A stretch of DNA of 64,000 bases from Isoetes taiwanensis (taxonomy: Eukaryota; Streptophyta; Lycopodiopsida; Isoetales; Isoetaceae), in NCBI GenBank assembly GCA_021234155.1, contig JAJEKV010000003.1:14122386-14186385 (forward strand). The letters run 5' to 3'. Position 1 is the stretch's first letter, and each line of letters opens with the position of its first letter. The notes beneath the pieces were generated by a model. That model searched no databases, was not told the origin of the DNA, and was given only the letters and a program-made list of their open reading frames with translations. The translations under genes and the position numbers were made by a program. Positions 20,439-60,886 of this stretch are shown piece after piece.

Positions 20439-21875
20439 TACAAGAAACCCCAGATGTGGCCCAATAAGCAAGAAGTCTAGAGTTAACATTCAAATTCTGA
20501 TTTATCACGTGGAGCACCTATTCCATTTTCTTTAAAATGTTCCCTAGGGGGCATTACCATCTTAGCCTAAGATTTCTGAGCAAACAAGACCATTCATACT
20601 CTTAAACACAGTATAAACCACCAGATCCATTTGTTTTCCTAAGGTATTCCTAGTGCTCCTCTTTATCCACAAAATGAAAACTTAGTGGGATGTATGAAGT
20701 GTTGCTTCTAAATAATGAAACCTGGATATAAGGAGATGCAGCACTATCTTCCACTGTAATTAAGCAACTCTTTGCTTCTGGGATTCCAAATAACAAAAGT
20801 TGGATCCAATTCCTTGCTTTGATCAATGCTCATCATCCCGCTACTGTAAACAATTGTGGCTTTTCTTAACTACTACCTAACAGAGTCTCATCTGCAAGGA
20901 TGTGTCATGGTTCAGACGGACACTATTTTTGTGTATAAAAAACAATGGTTTGAATATGACAAGCTAACTTTCACGAAAGGAGAATATTTAATCTGCAGAA
21001 TCTTGTTCCAATGCAGGTTGAGCAGAAGAAGAGATGCTTGCAAGAGGAGAGGTCCAATTAAATGGGCTGTCTAGAGAGATGTTTATAGGAATTAAGGGTA
21101 TTACAGAGAAACTAACATGATACTTTATCCATTATCTCAAACCAAGAGTAAGGCACTGCCCACGAATTTAAACGAAGACTAAGTGATTGCCCACAGATTC
21201 GAAAACGATTTGGAAAAAATGGAAGATTTGTACCTTCCAGGAAGCGGCTATTGGAGCTCCACATGCCATGCATCCAAAGCACGATCCTGTATAACATACC
21301 TAAATTTACGCATTTCAGAACTCTTCAAGCTAAATTTACAGCTACACTGCATGGCTGGGTCTCTCTTCCTGGATATTGAAATCGAAGCCAGCACTGAAAT
21401 AAATACGTCCTGTTTGCAACGCATCCAGACCTTGCTACACATCCGGCCCAGCACGGAGGAGCCCACGGAAAATCATTTCATACCTGCCTTTCTCGAACCC
21501 TGCTTTGGCAAAATCATAGAACCCTAAACTATGTTTGCACGAGCCTTGCATGTGTAAACTTCGGTTAGGTTAGAAATACATGGGCCAACCATTGGAATAT
21601 GGCGCAAAAATCAAGGATGATTGTATGCGCACTCTAGATGTACGCATTAGTACATCTCATGCAATACATCTATCAAATCATATGAAAACCATAGAAAAAA
21701 ACGTACAAAAATACAAGGGAAACCCCCTGTTATTATGCTAGATATTAGTAGGTCTAACCTGACACGTTTGAAACTAACTAGAGAAATGTTCGCGACAGCC
21801 TTGGCCGCCGCGATAAATTTCTTGTTTCTTGTAAATAAATAAATAACAGAGAATGATGAAAATATGGGGTAAAGA
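20439..21875. other. Intergenic, no gene seen; contains GC-rich palindromic motif
   Basis: The motif CCTTGGCCGCCGCGATAAAT within 21791-21824 recurs at the window's right end (63893-63944). The neighbouring stretch 21660-21730 resembles 40570-40660 at low identity. No coding signature recognised. Confidence 0.45.
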
Positions 21876-22165
21876 GACCCAAAATCATCGAAAAAGACTA
21901 AACAAGTAAGATTCAAATGATATAACACGTGCGAATGATATAACACGTGATACATTTGATATAAATGAGATTTTCATACTAAGGTTGAAACCTTTGCTTT
22001 TAGGGGCAATAAACACAAGGGGTTATTCAAACACAATCAATAAACAATCGCATCTGCATCTGCTAAGCAAGCGAAGGTGGTGCCATGATTGGGTTAGGGA
22101 GGGGAAGTGACAAGGAAGGGTGTTGAGGGTCGGAGAAGAGGCAAGGAGGGGTGTTGAGGGTCGGT
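21876..22165. repeat. Direct repeat flanking the recombinase element, left copy
   Basis: Aligns with 25410-25640 with moderate divergence: shared blocks include GACTAAACAAGTA, GGTTGAAACCTTTGCTTTTA, GGGTTATTCAAACAC and GGGTCGGAGAAGAGGCAAGG. The right copy is the 3' part of the proline-rich gene near RPL23A, so the left copy is a truncated duplicate of that locus. Confidence 0.85.
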
Positions 22166-22187
22166 GAATAAGGATGACGTATACAAG

Positions 22188-22287
22188 AATGTCATTTTTG
22201 TTGACATTCCGGCGTGGAAACGCTGCCGATGCGCGTTAGCGCGGAGGCGGCGTTGACACGCCGGAATGTCAAACAAAAATGACATTC
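22188..22287. repeat. 100 bp near-perfect hairpin
   Basis: Arms 22188-22217 and 22257-22287 pair over 30 bases with one bulge (GAATGTCATTTTTG... with ...CAAAAATGACATTC). The inner 39 bases pair again imperfectly through GC-rich arms (AACGCTGCC with GGCGGCGTT). It ends exactly where the terminal inverted repeat of the recombinase element starts. Confidence 0.92.
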
Positions 22288-22323
22288 GAGTAACGTGAAG
22301 TTCACCCTAGCCTTCATTCTGTC
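22288..22323 (+). repeat. Terminal inverted repeat, left
   Basis: Begins GAGTAACGTGAAG and ends CTTCATTCTGTC; pairs with 25203-25236. Confidence 0.88.
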
Positions 22324-22941
22324 ATTTTTTTTTCCTCCTTTGTTCTTCCTGCGCCATCGCCATCGTTTCTTTAGGCGATCATCGTGTTTGCGGTGGCGCC
22401 ATCGCTGAGTTTCATTCCGGTGGCGCCATCTAGGTTTGAGGTTGAGTAGACGAGTTTTTGGAAGATTTTGACGAAGTTGTGAAGCTTCTTGGTCTGTTTT
22501 GGTGTATTTTCTCTGTCTTTTTCCTTCCGGTGGCGTCATCTTGCTCTGAGCGTTCGTTAGACGAAAGTTTTGAAGGTTTTGAAGAAGTTTCTTGGTGCCT
22601 TTGGTCTGCTTTGTCTGTGTTCTTACTTGCATGGCTGTTTCTTGCTATTTCTTGCGTGCTGGAGGATGTAGGACGACTCTAAAGAGAACTAGGATGGCCT
22701 TTTTGCAAGAAATTCTTGCATGCAGGTTCTCTTGTCGAAGTTTTGTGCTTCTTAGTTTGTTTCAAGTTCTGATTTATAGTCTATGATGAGTTTCAGACTT
22801 GGATTCTAGGTTTTCGTATGATCCGGGCGGTTTGTTCAAGCATTCTCTAAAAAAGGCAAGTATCTTTGTTGTTTTTTGTCATTTTTCTTTTATTTTTCGG
22901 TTCTTGTTACTAATTTGAATTTTCTTTTGTAGATTTCTGTG

Positions 22942-24882
22942 ATGGATGATCTTGAGGAGCCTATTCTTAGGGATATCACAAATATCATTGTTGAAAGGGA
23001 GCTGCAGACAGAGAAGCTTGCTAGTTTGAATATTTCGGATGAGGCCAATGAAACTGTTGCTGATTTTGAGAAGGCTTTACTTTCTGAATTTGGAGAAGAA
23101 GCCATTACTAAGTATTTGACAGAGGCCAGTGTTGAACCTGTGATTGTTCCTGTTGCAGATCCTAGTGGTAGTAGGCTTCCATTTGTGGAGTTAGATGAGA
23201 AATTACAGCAAGAGGTAGATGCTGGAGGTATTAGTAGATCTGCTGCTAAGATTGCTTGGGCTAGGAACAGATTTGATCTTTGGAGGCAGACTTATAACTA
23301 TTCTTTGGAGAAATCTATTGAGGAGATGGATCTTTCCTTATTTGCTTCCTTATTAGAGAAATTTATGATGCAAGTGGTGAAGAAAGACAAGAAAGGATCA
23401 TTCTATCCTCCAGAATCGTGAGTAACTTAAATTTATAATTGTTTCTTGCTTGTTTTATGTCTATTAAATTTTGTTATTAATTTACCTTTGTTTCTTGCAG
23501 GCTTCATGATATGTTTCGAAAATTTGGTGCAATAATTCGAAGAAATCAAGAGATTAGAATTGCCAATACTGGAATTGGAATTTCTGAGGTAAAATTCTCT
23601 ATCAAAGACTCTCCAATATTTGAGAGGGCAAGGCTTGCTTGTGTGGCATCCATGAGAAGGTCCAGGAACACTCCAGGGGTGTGTAAGAAGAGGAAGAAAG
23701 TGGAAGAAATACCTTATGGTAGTGAGCAGCTCCTTCTTGCTAATGTAGATCATTCAATCTGTCATCCTAAAGGTTTGCAGAAGAGATTTCTTTACTATTG
23801 TGTGGCTCGATTTGCTATTCGAGGTCAAGGTGAGGTGCATCAGTTGCTTATGACTGATTTCTCGGTTGGAGATGAAAATGGACAAGAATATCTTGAATAT
23901 AGTGAGAGACTTTCAAAGAATAATGATACTGATATGAATCATTATCAGGAGGAACAGTTTCGAAGACCTTGCCGGTGCTATGAGAATGATGTAGTTCTTA
24001 CATTTAGACAATTGCAGAAACATTTGCCTGTGCCTAAGCCTAATACTGATGGGACTGCGGGAAATGCGCATTGTTTTATGCAAGCAATCGTTAATCATAG
24101 GGGACCGATCTGGTATAATTCAAAAAATAGGGTGTCTGCTAGAAAATTGGCTGGTTGGGTCAAGTATATGTTGTTGACTGTTGGTGTTGAGGGTCAGTTC
24201 AGCAACAAATCTGGTAGATGTACCGTGGTTTCCAGAATGACGATGGCACGTGTTCCTACTAATATTGGTATGAGGGTGACTGGCCAGCGTACAACTGAAG
24301 CATATTCTAGGTGTGTTACTTTCTTCCTTGCTTTTTCTTTTACTTATTTAATTTGGTTTAATGTTATAATATATTACAGGTATGACAAGACCTTAGATTT
24401 GCAGACGAAGTGTGCTATGTCATGTGTTTCACAGCCTTTCGATGAAAAAGGAAAGAGGAATGTTTGAAGATGTATACAAGCAGGAACTTCAGAAGATTGA
24501 TGATATGGATCGAGGAATGCAAGTTGCAGGTAGTTATAGTGCATGTCCAGGTAGTTCTCTTGTGCAGAATGATGCTATGGATGTTGCGAATTGTCAAATG
24601 GATTCTGTGGAACCTACCACTGTTGGAAATGTTCAGTCTGTTGCCACTGTTCCTAGTTTTGATCTGAATCTAAAGTTTCCTGCTGAGGATTTGAGGGATG
24701 ATGATATACAGTTAAACAAAGACATAGACGTGTTGACAAAATCGTCTCCAGAATCGTCTCCAGATGTCAAGCGTGCAGGTTTTCAAAATATCAATCTTCA
24801 TATTGGCAATATTTCTGGTGGTTATTTTCAGAATTGCAGCATTGTTATGCCATTCATGTCTAGGGAAATCATGACGAGATGA
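22942..24882 (+). CDS. Crypton/DUF3504-type tyrosine recombinase, frameshifted near its 3' end
   Basis: Exons are 22942-23417, 23501-24310 and 24380-24467, with canonical GTGAGT/GCAG and GTGTGT/ACAG introns and matching phases. ATG 22942 is chosen as the first in-frame start after the leader acceptor. The N-terminal domain ends in a core-binding-like region (AWARNRFDLWRQ, then GSFYPPESLHDM), characteristic of Crypton-derived proteins such as the ZMYM2 and QRICH1 families. The catalytic domain shows R266 (FAIRGQGEVH), K298 (SERLSKN), K395-x-x-R398 (SNKSGR, where His-x-x-Arg is usual), Q421 (TGQR, usually GHR) and Tyr430 (AYSRY) on the third exon. The frame stops at 24467, but the next frame stays open to TGA 24880-24882 and encodes an acidic tail ending in a GGYFQNCSIV motif. 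A single-base frameshift in the A-rich stretch near 24450 is likely. DNA cutting and rejoining is the expected activity. The two histidine replacements may reduce it or may be a lineage variant. Confidence 0.85.
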
Positions 24883-25202
24883 TAAAGGGTTTTGGCTCAA
24901 AAACTTTTGGTTTTGGCTCTGCTAGTTCTCCTTGAAGTTCTGCTAGAAGTTCTCTTTCGCTTGAATTGATACTTTGGAAGTATCAGATTTTGAACTCTAA
25001 TGTGTTGTTTGAATTGATACTTGAAGTATCATATTTTGAATTGTAATGTGGACATCCTTCTTAAATGAATGCAAGAAATTTTCAGTCTCGAAATTTTCAA
25101 AATTGTAACTAAGTAAAAACAAGAAATGCAAGTAAAAATAGAATTGCAACCAAGTAATTACATTTTGCAAAAGAAGAACATAGCAGAATAAGGGGTAAAA
25201 AG

Positions 25203-25236
25203 GACAGAATGAAGGCTAGGTGAGCTTTACGTTATC
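25203..25236 (-). repeat. Terminal inverted repeat, right
   Basis: Reverse complement begins GATAACGTAAAGC and ends CTTCATTCTGTC; pairs with 22288-22323. Confidence 0.88.
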
Positions 25237-25409
25237 AAGAATTCCACTAACTAAGTGATCATTATTGACAATTGACATCAAACACCTACCTTATACTAAA
25301 TTCTAAGTCATTTTAAGATTTTCCATTGCAAGGGACCTCCTAGACTAAAGGCTTCATGGATGGCCATGCATCTAAATAATCACAACTTCAAATTATAAAT
25401 AAAATGTTG

Positions 25410-25640
25410 ACACCCAAAGTGATAGAAAAAGACTAAACAAGTAGGATTCCAATGATATAACAACATGGGATACATACATTAGCGTAAATGAGATATATAT
25501 TCATCCAAAGGTTGAAACCTTTGCTTTTAGCGGGTATAATAAACAGAAAGGGTTATTCAAACACCGTCTTGGAAGAGAAGGTGGTGCCACGATGGGGTCA
25601 GGGAAGGGAAGAGGAAGAGGGTCGGAGAAGAGGCAAGGGT
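25410..25640. repeat. Direct repeat flanking the recombinase element, right copy
   Basis: Partner of 21876-22165. It overlaps the 3' end and downstream sequence of the proline-rich gene at 25598-26020. Confidence 0.85.
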
Positions 25641-26296: not shown

Positions 26297-26995
<699 letters not shown>

Positions 26996-27347
26996 AGGAT
27001 CTATATGATACCAGTGGTTTACCCATTGCGCATTTTTGTAATAGTAAAATGCATTTTCAGTTTATAAACGCAATTGCCTTTTTTCTGCTTTGTATTCTAC
27101 TGATGCCATGCTGTGAATGAATTCTTTCTTTGACAATAATCTTGCTAGATTCACCAGTGACAATTCTGAGATTTCAGTTTGGAGAAATTGTGCTTCCTTC
27201 CAGATAATGGAAACGTTTTAGTTCTTGGTGAATATAGGCCTGGACGATGTCATACATCTGTGGTGGAATAATGGAATGATGGTCTTGTACCTTGTGATGT
27301 AGCAGTGTTCTTTGCACTTCAATTGTATTATGGAAGGACTTCACCTT
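26996..27347. other. RPL23A 3' flank, no gene seen
   Basis: Probable 3' untranslated region followed by intergenic sequence. The ATAGTAAAATG near 27040 and T-rich stretches could serve in 3' end formation, but no single poly(A) signal stands out. Confidence 0.4.
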
Positions 27348-27473
27348 CATGTGCAATTGTACTATGCAATGTGTTCTGAGTGCTTTCTTCATGTGCAATT
27401 GTACTATGCAATGTGTTCTGAGTGCTTTCTTCATGTGCAATTGTACTATGCAATTTGTTCTAAGTGCTTTATA
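27348..27473. repeat. Three tandem copies of a 42 bp unit
   Basis: Units start at 27348, 27390 and 27432 with CATGTGCAATTGTACTATGC. The first two are identical and the third differs at its end. The minus-strand ORF across it is only a read-through of the repeat. Confidence 0.95.
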
Positions 27474-57624: not shown

Positions 57625-60231
57625 TCATGTGAACTGAGGAAAGTTCGTGTTCAGAAGATATTTCTGGTCAGTGGCAAAATCAACCCTTTGCCTACTATAG
57701 TGGGGCTGTTATAGTTGTGATCTAGCTTTGTAATTACAAATATGGTATGTACTCGAAAATCGCCGCTCAAAACTAGCGTTTGGATTTGGAGTCTTTCGGC
57801 GTTTTAATATTATCTATATATATATATATTCCCAAAGGGGGATGCGTGATAAGATGGAGTAAAGCTTTAAGCATGAAGCTGTGGAGCAGATGTTATATGG
57901 CCATGGCACATGCAAAAGCATTACGGAGGTGATAACTTTGTACCATATGAATTGTCTTCTTTCTGGTTATCAGCCAAGGCATATGCTGGTTGCTAGTCTA
58001 AAAAAGTGTGAATTCGTTTTTACGAGGAGCATCTTATAAGGATAGCTTATTCCCTTATAATTTGGGGGAGATTTTTAAATAAAAATTTGTCCATTGTTTA
58101 TTATAGTTTTTGCTGAGTAGGGCAGTGACCACTTCAGTTTATTGTATATAATTGCACTGTCGTGTGTGATGTTACCGATAAATGGCATAGCTAACCGGCA
58201 TCAGTTGGGGGCAGGTTGTCCAGACTGGTATAGCAAGGAAAATAGAATATTTCTGCTAATTATATTGCTTATCTAGAAAGATTAATACTTTTTTTATTGA
58301 AATGTAGAATAAACATGGTCCATAAATGCTTCATTGTTTGAAAGTTTTGTTGTTAGCTGCGGATCTGCAGAATATTCTGTTGTTTACACCAGATTCGTGG
58401 ACACAACATTTTCAAGAAAAATGCACTGACACTTTCAATGGTGTAAAACAGATCGATGGTTGGTGCCACAAAAATAAAAAAAATGCAAACAATGGACTGC
58501 CGGAATGAATACAGGCCAGGCCTGCCATCCATGGCCGCTGCTTCAACGCAAATCGGCTTCAGGGCTCCATGGCCGTTGCTTCAGGGCAAATCAGACTTAG
58601 TGGCAAATTGGCCTTATAGGCTCCTTAAGCTTATAGGCTCTAGTGGCTTAAGGGCAAATCGGCTTCAGTGGCTTCACGACATTCTTTGGGGCATTCCTCA
58701 GCTCAAATCAAAGCATTCGAGCCAGTAACAACTCCAAATCGGCTCCATTTGTTGCGCATACCATATTCGAAATTGATATGAGAGAACTACAGGTCCGCTT
58801 CCGACCGGCATATTCGACAAAAGATTTTACTGCTTACCCGCTCGCTCCATGCCAAAATCCAGATGACAGAAACTCTCGCCTGCTTCCTCCCGCCAAATCC
58901 GACATGCCCATGCCCAGCAGCTCTCCAATCCGTTGCCAGACCGCCTTCACATGGTTTCCCATTTGGGACCTTTGAAACAGACCTAAAAATTGTCCACCCA
59001 ACCCACCCAAAATTAGAACATCCCCCCTTAAGTCAATTAAGCTCCTCAAAATGGCCCTAAATATACCCTTTTCCATATAATACTATACCAAAATCATAAT
59101 CCACACGATTGCCAAAATACCCTCCTCAAATACGAAACGAATTGGGCAAACTATATGTAGGTTGATTTCTTTGAACTAATATCTTGAGATTCTTGCTTAG
59201 CATTTTGGCACCTCATCAAATTTTGTGCGCTAAACTTTTAACACCTAGCAATGAAAGGTGTTTTCATACTACATTTTGACACCTACAAATACAACGGCTT
59301 CCAAACCACACAGCGGATAGCGCCTCTACATAGCTAGGTAGCCATGATAGTGATCTGAGGAGCGACATCAAATTTTAACAGATGTAGCCGATTTGCAGAC
59401 ACATGCATATCCATATCCATATTTAGACATATCCATATCCATCACTTATATAATTGATTCACACTAAGATTCGATTCCTTTGATGCTTAGATTCCTAAGT
59501 GGGGAAAAAATTAGGAAGGAAAAAATAATTGGGTGAAAATTTTGAGGGAGGCCACGTCGTTGATCTTATCTGCTTCTGGAGGACTCTGCTCCGTCAAACG
59601 CTCTTCCTGAGACTTGAGGCTTTGCTTTCTCCGGTTCATTTGCTCCATTCCGGCGAGCTCTGCTTTCACCGCCGCCATAACCCAGCTAGTAAAAAATTTT
59701 GTGTTTCTGTGCTGCATCTCTCTGGCTATGGTTCTGGCATGGTACAAACGTTAGCCATGTAACAGGACAGCTTTGCCGACGGATTCAAGACAACTCCGCC
59801 TGGCTATGGCTATGGCGACAGGCTCGGTCTAGCTATGGCGACAGGTTCCAGCTTCTAAGCTTCAAAAAATTGCTTTCAACCTTGAAGTTTCATAAAACAA
59901 CCAATTCTTCAGCTTATCTAGTGCCGAATCTGCGCCTCGGCATTGCATCTCTGCTGCAAGGCCACCTCAGCTGTGCGATTCAAGGATGTTGCGGAATTTC
60001 TTGCCATGACCATGTCGAAGATCGTCTTATAAGCCCTAGTTTGTCAGATTCTTCCTCCTAGTTTCATTCCTAAGCTTAATAACACTCCATTTTTTGTGAT
60101 ACAAAAAGGAATAGAGCCACTTACGTCATTTTCTGCAAAATTGCTCTCAATATTGCAATGAAGAAAGCATTTATGTGGGTTACTCGTGTTTTTCTAATGT
60201 TGCGATTGTCGGAGCTAAGAATTTTTCTGTA
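57625..60231. other. Intergenic, no confident gene
   Basis: Contains a short (TA)n run near 57815, short direct repeats of GGCTTCAG/GGCTTA-type phrases at 58545-58680, and CATATCCATATCCAT repeats at about 59405-59440. On the minus strand ATG 59678 opens a 55-codon charged frame (MAAVKAELAGMEQMNRRKQS) in a good start context; it could be an orphan first exon or a short gene, but it has no recognised relative. Confidence 0.4.
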
Positions 60232-60321
60232 TAGGGGAATGGAGGTTGGGACTCCATTCCGGATTTGTCACCGCGCCGGTCACTCCGAAAACCGAATGGA
60301 GGACCAACCTCCATTCCCCTA
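60232..60321. repeat. 90 bp foldback with 18 bp perfect arms
   Basis: TAGGGGAATGGAGGTTGG and its exact inverse face each other across a 54 base centre. It adjoins, and shares one base with, the left end of the following inverted-repeat pair. Confidence 0.85.
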
Positions 60322-60886
60322 CAAAATAGAAATAGGGGAGGCAGCTGGCAGATTCGACATATTTAAGGTGTTTTGCAGATTTCTTTGCTGTTCTTTCAAA
60401 GATCCGCTAAGAAAGCATCTCGCGAAGATAAAGATATGCGTATCCGGGCGATCGCTATCTACAAGACCTTCTTCTACTATCTCATGGAGAAATGATCCGT
60501 TATCCGCAAAGAAAACCCTCAATTCAAGAAAAACTGCAAAAAATCAAGAAGACCCTGCGAAGAACTACCTGGTTACAGAGCTTGAACTACCTGCGAAGCA
60601 CTACCTTGCCGCATTTGCTGATGACCTGCATTACAAGGCCCTTTGAGAGAGATGAAGCTCGTCGCATTACAGAGCTCGTCGCAGAGCTCGTCGCATTACA
60701 GAGCTCGTCGCAGAACTGGCGGACACAGAACTGGCGGCGACCCTAAAACAAAACCTTTAAGAGAACTTGAGCAGCCGGTCACGCGGAATGGGAAGACCCT
60801 ATTTCCATTCCGCTGTGTAGGCGACCGCCACGTGGCAGCTCGTGATTGAACCTCAGTAAAAATAGCCGACCCTATTTCTATTTTGT
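60321..60886. mobile_element. Possible MITE bounded by 17 bp inverted repeats
   Basis: ACAAAATAGAAATAGGG at 60321-60337 is exactly inverted at 60870-60886, giving a 566 bp unit. Inside are short tandem repeats of GAGCTCGTCGCATTACA (about 60655-60720) and another small inverted pair around GGAATGG/CCATTCC (60787-60817). No coding sequence. Confidence 0.55.

Follow-up and report, generated by a model that had tools for sequence, protein, structure and literature searches.

A stretch of 64,000 nucleotides of the Isoetes taiwanensis genome (contig JAJEKV010000003.1, positions 14,122,386 to 14,186,385 of the forward strand, hereafter the ‘window’) contains a mobile element of 3,052 bp encoding a protein related to tyrosine recombinases (YRs). 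This element occupies positions 22179–25230, with ends set by comparing copies, and probably represents a family of land-plant YR DNA transposons moving by site-specific recombination. That such movement is driven by the YR is considered highly likely, and the features described below suggest that it proceeds by cutting and joining at structured DNA and not by the usual chemistry of plant transposases. Sequence comparisons indicate that this land-plant genome carries a large, diverse and multi-family group of such transposons.

The unity of gene and ends relies on the distribution of copies. A protein search of the genome gave at least 166 matches to the YR, and an 18-nt core of the repeats flanking the gene (up to one mismatch) has 37 matches in the 1.66-Gb genome versus 0 for a backwards control, so that the inverted-repeat pair is not due to chance. 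The matches form mostly convergent pairs. About a dozen of them delimit units of 0.8–1.3 kb, too short for the YR gene; YR-bearing units with the repeat core are present on contigs C1034 (the window), C1081, C1094 and C1102, and a lone repeat end adjoins a YR copy on C1031. In other words, YR-bearing copies and short gene-less copies have ends in common. Since only part of the candidates was scored (93 of 2,660 for the protein, 40 of 655 and 40 of 366 for joined flanks), the numbers of copies and of empty sites are minimum values. Of the 14 loci examined (designated by L numbers), 7 showed a clear pair of repeats arranged in this way, the remainder having a single end, weak pairs or no pair. 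Lineages whose proteins are only 65–70% identical to that of the window account for six of these seven loci, and the divergent lineages have their own matched repeats (ACGTGAA... on the left, ...TTTAC on the right), with a hairpin outside the left repeat in each. This argues against a one-off capture, which the original prediction, made from the letters of the window alone, had offered as an alternative to a new element architecture. The single mobile unit of recombinase gene and inverted repeats is borne out by a genome search with the repeats and the recombinase as queries, the check proposed at the time, which found dispersed copies with the same two ends as well as empty sites.

The YR is also the sole transposition enzyme recognized in a partial survey of open reading frames (ORFs) covering the window gene and the two longest YR copies (L034 and L035). 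The longest ORFs of these two copies are mostly pieces of the YR or antisense to it, and their four other ORFs have no Pfam match above cut-off.

Identity of the encoded protein

The YR-like gene is spliced, with three exons and predicted splice sites (Table 1), and encodes 457 amino acids including the motifs YPPESL, R266, K298, KSGR398 and Y430. Of the gene first proposed at 22942–24882, the recombinase motifs and the spliced structure stand, but the frame that runs up to 24882 does not continue that of the catalytic exons. The window copy seems to have undergone a C-terminal frameshift, because the frame of Y430 stops at 24467 while the related copy L035 reads on in frame beyond the equivalent position.

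Assignment to the YRs relies on profile comparison and residue conservation, which together delineate a domain of the type R...H/K-x-x-R...Y. A profile of seven plant copies matched one of eight phage tyrosine integrases with a score of 48.2 (E 4.9e-6), versus 12.6 for the reversed profile and 22.4 for the best of 30 column shuffles; the alignment pairs KSGR with HTGR, TGQ with TGH, and RY with RY. The phage profile (A3), from which one of nine stretches was dropped for a stop codon, had been reached via a chance-level match of a plant copy (E 5), so that this first comparison was not unbiased. It was therefore repeated with 32 plant copies, leaving out the founding phage protein and its 69% relative, and gave 49.6 (E 2.6e-6), the best of 20 shuffles reaching 21.2. 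All 32 copies have K298, 31 have Y430 (one gap), 30 have K395, 30 have R398 and 28 have R266. Position 421 is Q in 18 of them, as in the window protein, and the usual H in 11; the H of a TGH motif is found in the most diverged copies (L149, L150, L152, L154, L155 and L160–L165), so that Q in the window lineage appears to be the derived state. Between YR lineages, dN/dS is about 0.07–0.17 for the pairs that allow an estimate of dS, many others being saturated.

Several results weigh against this assignment. Profiles of two YR families picked independently of any similarity to the plant protein, HP1 and lambda, performed poorly. The HP1-family profile scored 21.3 against seven plant copies (shuffles up to 23.4); against 32 copies it scored 24.0 (shuffles up to 19.5), with the same motifs aligned in the correct region, which is still a poor match. 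The lambda-family profile remained within shuffles and in the wrong region (14.4 with seven copies, 18.5 with 32), and a combined HP1 and lambda profile gave 18.2 and 21.6, respectively. Phage YR families match each other far better than HP1 or lambda matches the plant protein. The best single-sequence integrase matches are weak (Pfam E 0.0037, PHROG E 0.014) and comparable with those of unrelated models (0.0025). AlphaFold prediction from the single sequence, without an alignment, reached a pLDDT of 34, and a PDB sequence search matched no chain. The histidine of HxxR is K in the plant protein; such a K in place of H is found in some YRs. Finally, dN/dS within lineages ranges from 0.08 to 0.80, yet this is expected of decaying copies. 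Taken together, the profiles not chosen by similarity weaken the evidence, the founder-free result and the H at position 421 strengthen it, with no net shift in the odds: the YR identity of the plant protein appears well supported but remote.

As to the DUF3504 signature initially attributed to the protein, the Pfam DUF3504 match of the window protein falls below threshold (E 0.043, 14.3 bits versus a cut-off of 29.7). Weak PF12012 matches were obtained for three of seven plant members (best E 0.013), the first member being under the cut-off. Elsewhere in the genome, PF12012 matches above the cut-off occur at C31:90502-90981 and C606:42685-43182, with stops and on contigs other than those of the YR loci; they may be other Crypton-like relics or contamination. 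Searches for relatives outside the plant gave only chance-level tblastn matches against phage (best E 0.4), no relative in the viral contigs searched and no close relative in the prokaryote genomes scanned.

Ends, terminal hairpin and insertion sites

The two ends of the element differ. A 24-nt core is shared in inverted orientation (22306–22329 and 25197–25220, 96% complementary, 2,867 nt between), and the enclosing repeat pair first reported is therefore real, its right member being terminal: copies diverge after ...CTTTAC (CTTTAT in L029 and L035), which places the right end TTTAC at 25230. On the left, similarity among copies extends outward past the repeat, across a hairpin of ~107 nt, to GTATAC at 22179, so that the left repeat lies 114 bp inside the true left end and position 22288 is not the left limit of the element. 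An element with symmetric terminal inverted repeats (TIRs), as originally described, was thus rejected; the left end is a covarying hairpin. Also rejected was the idea that this hairpin is an unrelated miniature inverted-repeat transposable element (MITE) lying beside the transposon: it belongs to the element because it stands outside the left repeat in seven of seven divergent loci and lies within the boundaries given by empty sites.

The predicted folding energy of the window hairpin is −51.4 kcal/mol (z −11.66); an Rfam scan of the window at gathering thresholds gave no match. Its tip motif (up to two mismatches) has 220 matches in the genome versus 0 in the control and was not found in the viral contigs. 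Covariation was analysed in 20 picked left ends of 118–121 nt (alignment A1), shortened, rearranged, reverse-strand and near-duplicate ones being excluded. Among 44 predicted pairs, 33 show double-sided changes. Paired cells amount to 95.4%, versus 70.4% in shuffles, which lose relatedness, and 33–42% in slid controls, which retain it and over which the real alignment is favoured since the structure was predicted from A1 itself; double-sided cells number 207, versus 56.4 in shuffles and 28–40 when slid. The GA/GA internal loops are kept in 19 (inner) and 17 (outer) of the 20 sequences, although the surrounding pairs vary. Comparison of L019 and L054 leads to the same view: their repeats are identical at 39 of 40 positions and exon-2 dN is 0.026, but their stem arms agree at only 12 of 25 and 13 of 25 positions, those of L054 being nearer to L082 (20 of 25 and 21 of 25). 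The shape of the hairpin was thus held while its letters were exchanged. The hairpin is retained by gene-less copies too short for the YR. It is, in turn, much shortened in L021, L023, L029, L030 and L035, a point against its necessity: the full hairpin may be dispensable, or may have been lost after insertion.

Two observations on related hairpins may be added. Left ends L113 and L114 have hairpin arms repeated several times, suggesting hairpin duplication or replication slippage. The window itself contains, at 60229–60324, a further hairpin that has diverged but shares the start and the target (TTTCT followed by GTATAGGGGAATGG...CCTCCATTCCCCTAC), probably another member of the transposon group.

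Insertion sites were studied by joining the flanks of 21 insertions (14, the window and a set of six, taken from six of the seven loci with one left flank shortened) and using them to find empty sites. From 22 candidate loci fetched (14 + 8), 18 were read by script (11 + 7); L041 and L044 fit by eye, and L049 and L133 were not resolved. Empty sites were found for at least seven of the 21 insertions, the window insertion having none in this assembly. All are consistent with GTATAC...TTTAC having been placed, without target-site duplication, after TTTHY and before a dinucleotide that is usually GT. The empty sites of L027, L028, L029, L030 and L054 read flank-GT-flank. The target of L051 is a diverged repeat; of its three empty sites read, two have GT (one with an extra G) and one has AT. 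L053 has TG in all three empty sites read, GT at its left junction and TG at its right one, and therefore underwent no target-site duplication. The other six insertions equally fit a 2-bp GT duplication, which counts against conservative insertion; this duplication was rejected on L053 and kept as a rival (see below). Insertion without duplication beside a preferred GT is the simplest reading of all seven. Among 28 right junctions parsed, 24 have GT, the exceptions being L015 (GG), L021 (TA), L024 (TT) and L053 (TG); the left end begins with GT in these four loci, in a left-end search that favoured GT.

The left flanks (n = 48) give the consensus TTTHY, with T at −4 in 39, T at −3 in 35, Y at −1 in 46 and G at neither −2 nor −1. 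Significance values for these positions presuppose that the sites are independent and take their background from the flanks. This set was not chosen by junction motif: junction-selected loci (L060–L070, L079 and L100–L119) and overlapping loci were excluded, and it still includes a junction (L031) as well as some weak ends, among them L053+3692 and L033+1518. Ends not beginning with GT were left out, so that the logo gives no frequency for other left dinucleotides; L072, L093 and L094 seem to have a different start. The target TTTHY resembles TTTAC, the right end of the element itself, as would follow from recombination between two sites that share a half-core. L017 appears to be inserted at a mirror site within the hairpin base of another element.

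Proposed mechanism and comparison with known systems

When right and left ends are joined in silico, the joints of the window element and of six other loci fold as one long hairpin, in which repeat pairs with repeat and TTTACGT with ACGTGAA, followed by the terminal hairpin. A loop of 3 nt versus 2 nt adjoins the crossover in six of the seven modelled joints, the window copy having a single-nucleotide bulge. This folding describes a possible geometry and is no proof of circles. Junctions of the same kind exist in the genome: in L064 and L065 the right end of one element directly abuts the left end of another, and in L068 and L070 right-end-like sequence adjoins a left end. A right-end test, devised after viewing the sequences, was passed by 12 of 20 loci found by junction pattern (L113 and L114 being near-identical) and by 0 of 28 tip-sampled loci; head-to-tail junctions are a minority, a point against the mechanism proposed below. 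L090, missed by the filter of the test, resembles such a junction. The junction pattern has 654 genome matches versus 93 in the control, T-rich targets contributing. One region, C985:2250371-2272417, contains at least seven junction-motif matches in 22 kb with a spacing near 9.8 kb recurring, and is apparently an amplified group of these elements; 2.3 kb of this region were read as L060.

The following pathway is proposed. The YR would excise the element as a circle, joining TTTAC to GTATAC, whereby the two inverted repeats, this core and the hairpin would together make one long palindromic ‘att’ site. The YR would then recombine this site with chromosomal TTTHY-GT, probably as a folded single strand, cleaving at or beside the small internal loop; the junction of a resident element would also be usable as target, giving head-to-tail pairs. 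The folded strand is proposed to be the sense strand because it is predicted to be more stable than the antisense strand in 16 of 20 cases, whether DNA or RNA parameters are used, the difference being small. YR-driven conservative insertion would explain why L053 lacks a duplication and why the target resembles the right end, and would also account for the cognate repeats and the gene-less copies. A circular intermediate is likely, if less so than the role of the YR, and a folded single-stranded site resembling integron attC falls somewhat short of an even chance. Excision, the circle and enzyme activity are all deduced from sequence, which tempers the whole scheme.

Another role for the hairpin is as RNA, in regulation of the YR transcript or production of small RNAs, recombination using double-stranded ends only. 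The sense-strand hairpin lies 5′ of the gene, and its slightly higher predicted stability would suit such a role, which has a modest chance of being right. However, the hairpin starts at the crossover, lies between both repeats in the modelled circle and is kept by copies too short for the gene. Being within the modelled att palindrome and retained without a gene, it is more likely to act in DNA recombination than in a transcript.

Cryptons are the nearest described kind of element. The accessible parts of Kojima and Jurka 2011 (PMC3212892) describe them as having no TIRs, no long direct repeats and direct repeats of 4–6 bp, Chlamydomonas being the only plant named. The plant elements are Crypton-like in having a YR as the only recognized enzyme, in their proposed movement via a circle and in being multi-copy (PMC3212892). 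They differ in having cognate inverted repeats (about 30 bp) and a covarying terminal hairpin, and in lacking direct repeats of 4–6 bp, only GT being common to both junctions, and not always; furthermore, the similarity of their YR is only distant. ‘Crypton’, the name originally given, fairly describes what kind of element this is, but membership of the family is not established. Could it nevertheless be an ordinary Crypton already catalogued for plants in Repbase, preprints or subscription journals? The literature search covered open-access papers without preprints, which leaves room for this, but it is improbable given the described lack of TIRs and the 4–6 bp repeats of Cryptons (PMC3212892). 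Within the open-access papers searched (preprints and Repbase being outside their scope), in the sections available, no land-plant YR DNA transposon was found described: a plant-genome review lists the Crypton class and names no plant example (PMC11630846), accounts of YR elements in nematodes (PMC4157794) and of ALOG domains (PMC3537659) show no land-plant case, and a further review omits land plants even for YR retroelements (DIRS) (PMC9033089). The plant elements are therefore proposed as a new variant among YR DNA transposons.

The YR gene might also be a passenger in an ordinary TIR transposon of the DDE type with a 2-bp GT target-site duplication, its ends being moved by an unseen DDE transposase. 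Plant MITEs of DDE superfamilies are short gene-less copies with inverted repeats, as are the short copies here. Such a passenger would account for the inverted repeats and for the GT that flanks both sides of six of the seven insertions whose empty sites were found, and yet is very unlikely. A DDE-type duplication is excluded by L053 (target TG, left GT, right TG), the other six insertions fitting either none or GT, and right junctions lacking GT face a left GT in four of 28 cases, within a left-end search that favoured GT. Unlike in DDE MITEs, a hairpin beyond the repeat forms the left terminus, and it is a YR that is encoded by the partner with the same ends; repeat pairs of their own are retained by divergent YR lineages, and the longest ORFs of the two longest copies are mostly YR-derived, the four others having no Pfam match above cut-off.

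Helitrons transpose without duplication, have asymmetric ends with a hairpin near one of them, encode RepHel (an HUH nuclease with a helicase) and end in 5′TC...CTRR3′. Rolling-circle transposition of this kind, by an HUH protein via single-strand transfer with the YR as accessory only, would suit L053, the asymmetric ends, the one-sided hairpin and the head-to-tail pairs, but is the least likely rival, since the conserved gene is the YR, long inverted repeats are common to both ends, the Helitron end motifs and insertion between A and T are absent from the ends read, and neither RepHel nor any HUH or helicase domain was found in a limited survey of the YR protein and four further ORFs.

Integron cassettes form head-to-tail arrays and insert at a short core, and so do the plant elements. 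In integrons, according to the portion of PMC8191803 available, the YR reads the folded bottom strand of attC and not its sequence. The likeness extends to a tyrosine recombinase acting with a one-sided hairpin whose structure is conserved over sequence (PMC8191803), a feature indicated here by the covariation and by the stems of L019 and L054. The differences are that the plant element is eukaryotic, encodes its own YR and has its att palindrome split between two ends; no attI-like platform is known for it (attI was not looked for). Integron attC may serve as the best working analogy for the hairpin. A more encompassing view, still more tentative than the folded site taken separately, is that of a eukaryotic counterpart of integron cassettes: a plant superfamily in which the YR would recognize its att site, a single-stranded hairpin, from the folded structure (stem, GA/GA loops, small loop by the crossover), insert at TTTHY-GT without duplication, mobilize short gene-less copies and form head-to-tail arrays.

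Surroundings in the window and significance

The coordinates of the element are given in Table 1. Just downstream, ORF 26466–26870 encodes uL23; its best PDB matches include uL23y and plant-type uL23 chains, from species that we take to be plants (the matches name molecules only), in agreement with the plant host assumed at the outset. The element lies between two diverged direct copies of host sequence (21874–22146 and 25409–25638), matching in pieces of 35–54 nt that are 83–93% identical at a spacing of about 3.5 kb, as if it had inserted between tandem duplicates. Further on, at 27345–27470, a 42-nt unit occurs in three tandem copies.

Table 1. Features of the YR element, in window positions
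Feature	Position	Strand	Basis
Whole element, GTATAC...TTTAC	22179–25230	+ (gene orientation)	Copy comparison; boundaries agree with empty sites of other copies
Left terminal hairpin, with GTATAC at the base, a long stem with two GA/GA internal loops, a tip on a GCGCG stem, and ACGTGAA on the inner side	22179–22299	+	Folding and covariation
Left inverted repeat (subterminal), ACGTGAAGTTCACCCTAGCCTTCATTCTGTC	22293–22323	+	Sequence and copy comparison
YR exon 1, N-terminal part up to YPPES	22942–23417	+	ORFs; exon-wise matches in other copies
Intron 1 (predicted)	23418–23500	+	GT...AG and coding continuity
YR exon 2, with R266, K298 and KSGR398	23501–24310	+	Coding continuity; between-lineage dN/dS about 0.07–0.17 where dS could be estimated
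Intron 2 (predicted), 69 nt, open in frame	24311–24379	+	GT...AG and coding continuity
YR exon 3, with Y430; stop at 24467 in the window copy	24380–24467	+	ORF and coding continuity
C-terminal coding region; in the window copy its frame differs from that of the catalytic exons	24468–24882	+	ORF 24397–24882; related copy in frame
Right inverted repeat (terminal), ending TTTAC at the crossover	25203–25230	−	Sequence and copy comparison
GT outside the right end, read as target DNA	25231–25232	+	Empty sites of seven other insertions

If correct, this reading adds to plant genomes an abundant and diverse group of transposons whose chemistry is unlike that of DDE and Helitron elements, and which annotation based on TIRs and target-site duplications is likely to miss or misassign. 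The covarying hairpin raises the testable question of whether a eukaryotic YR recombines folded single strands, as integron integrases do, and the group may provide a site-specific recombinase that is native to plants and has a short target core.

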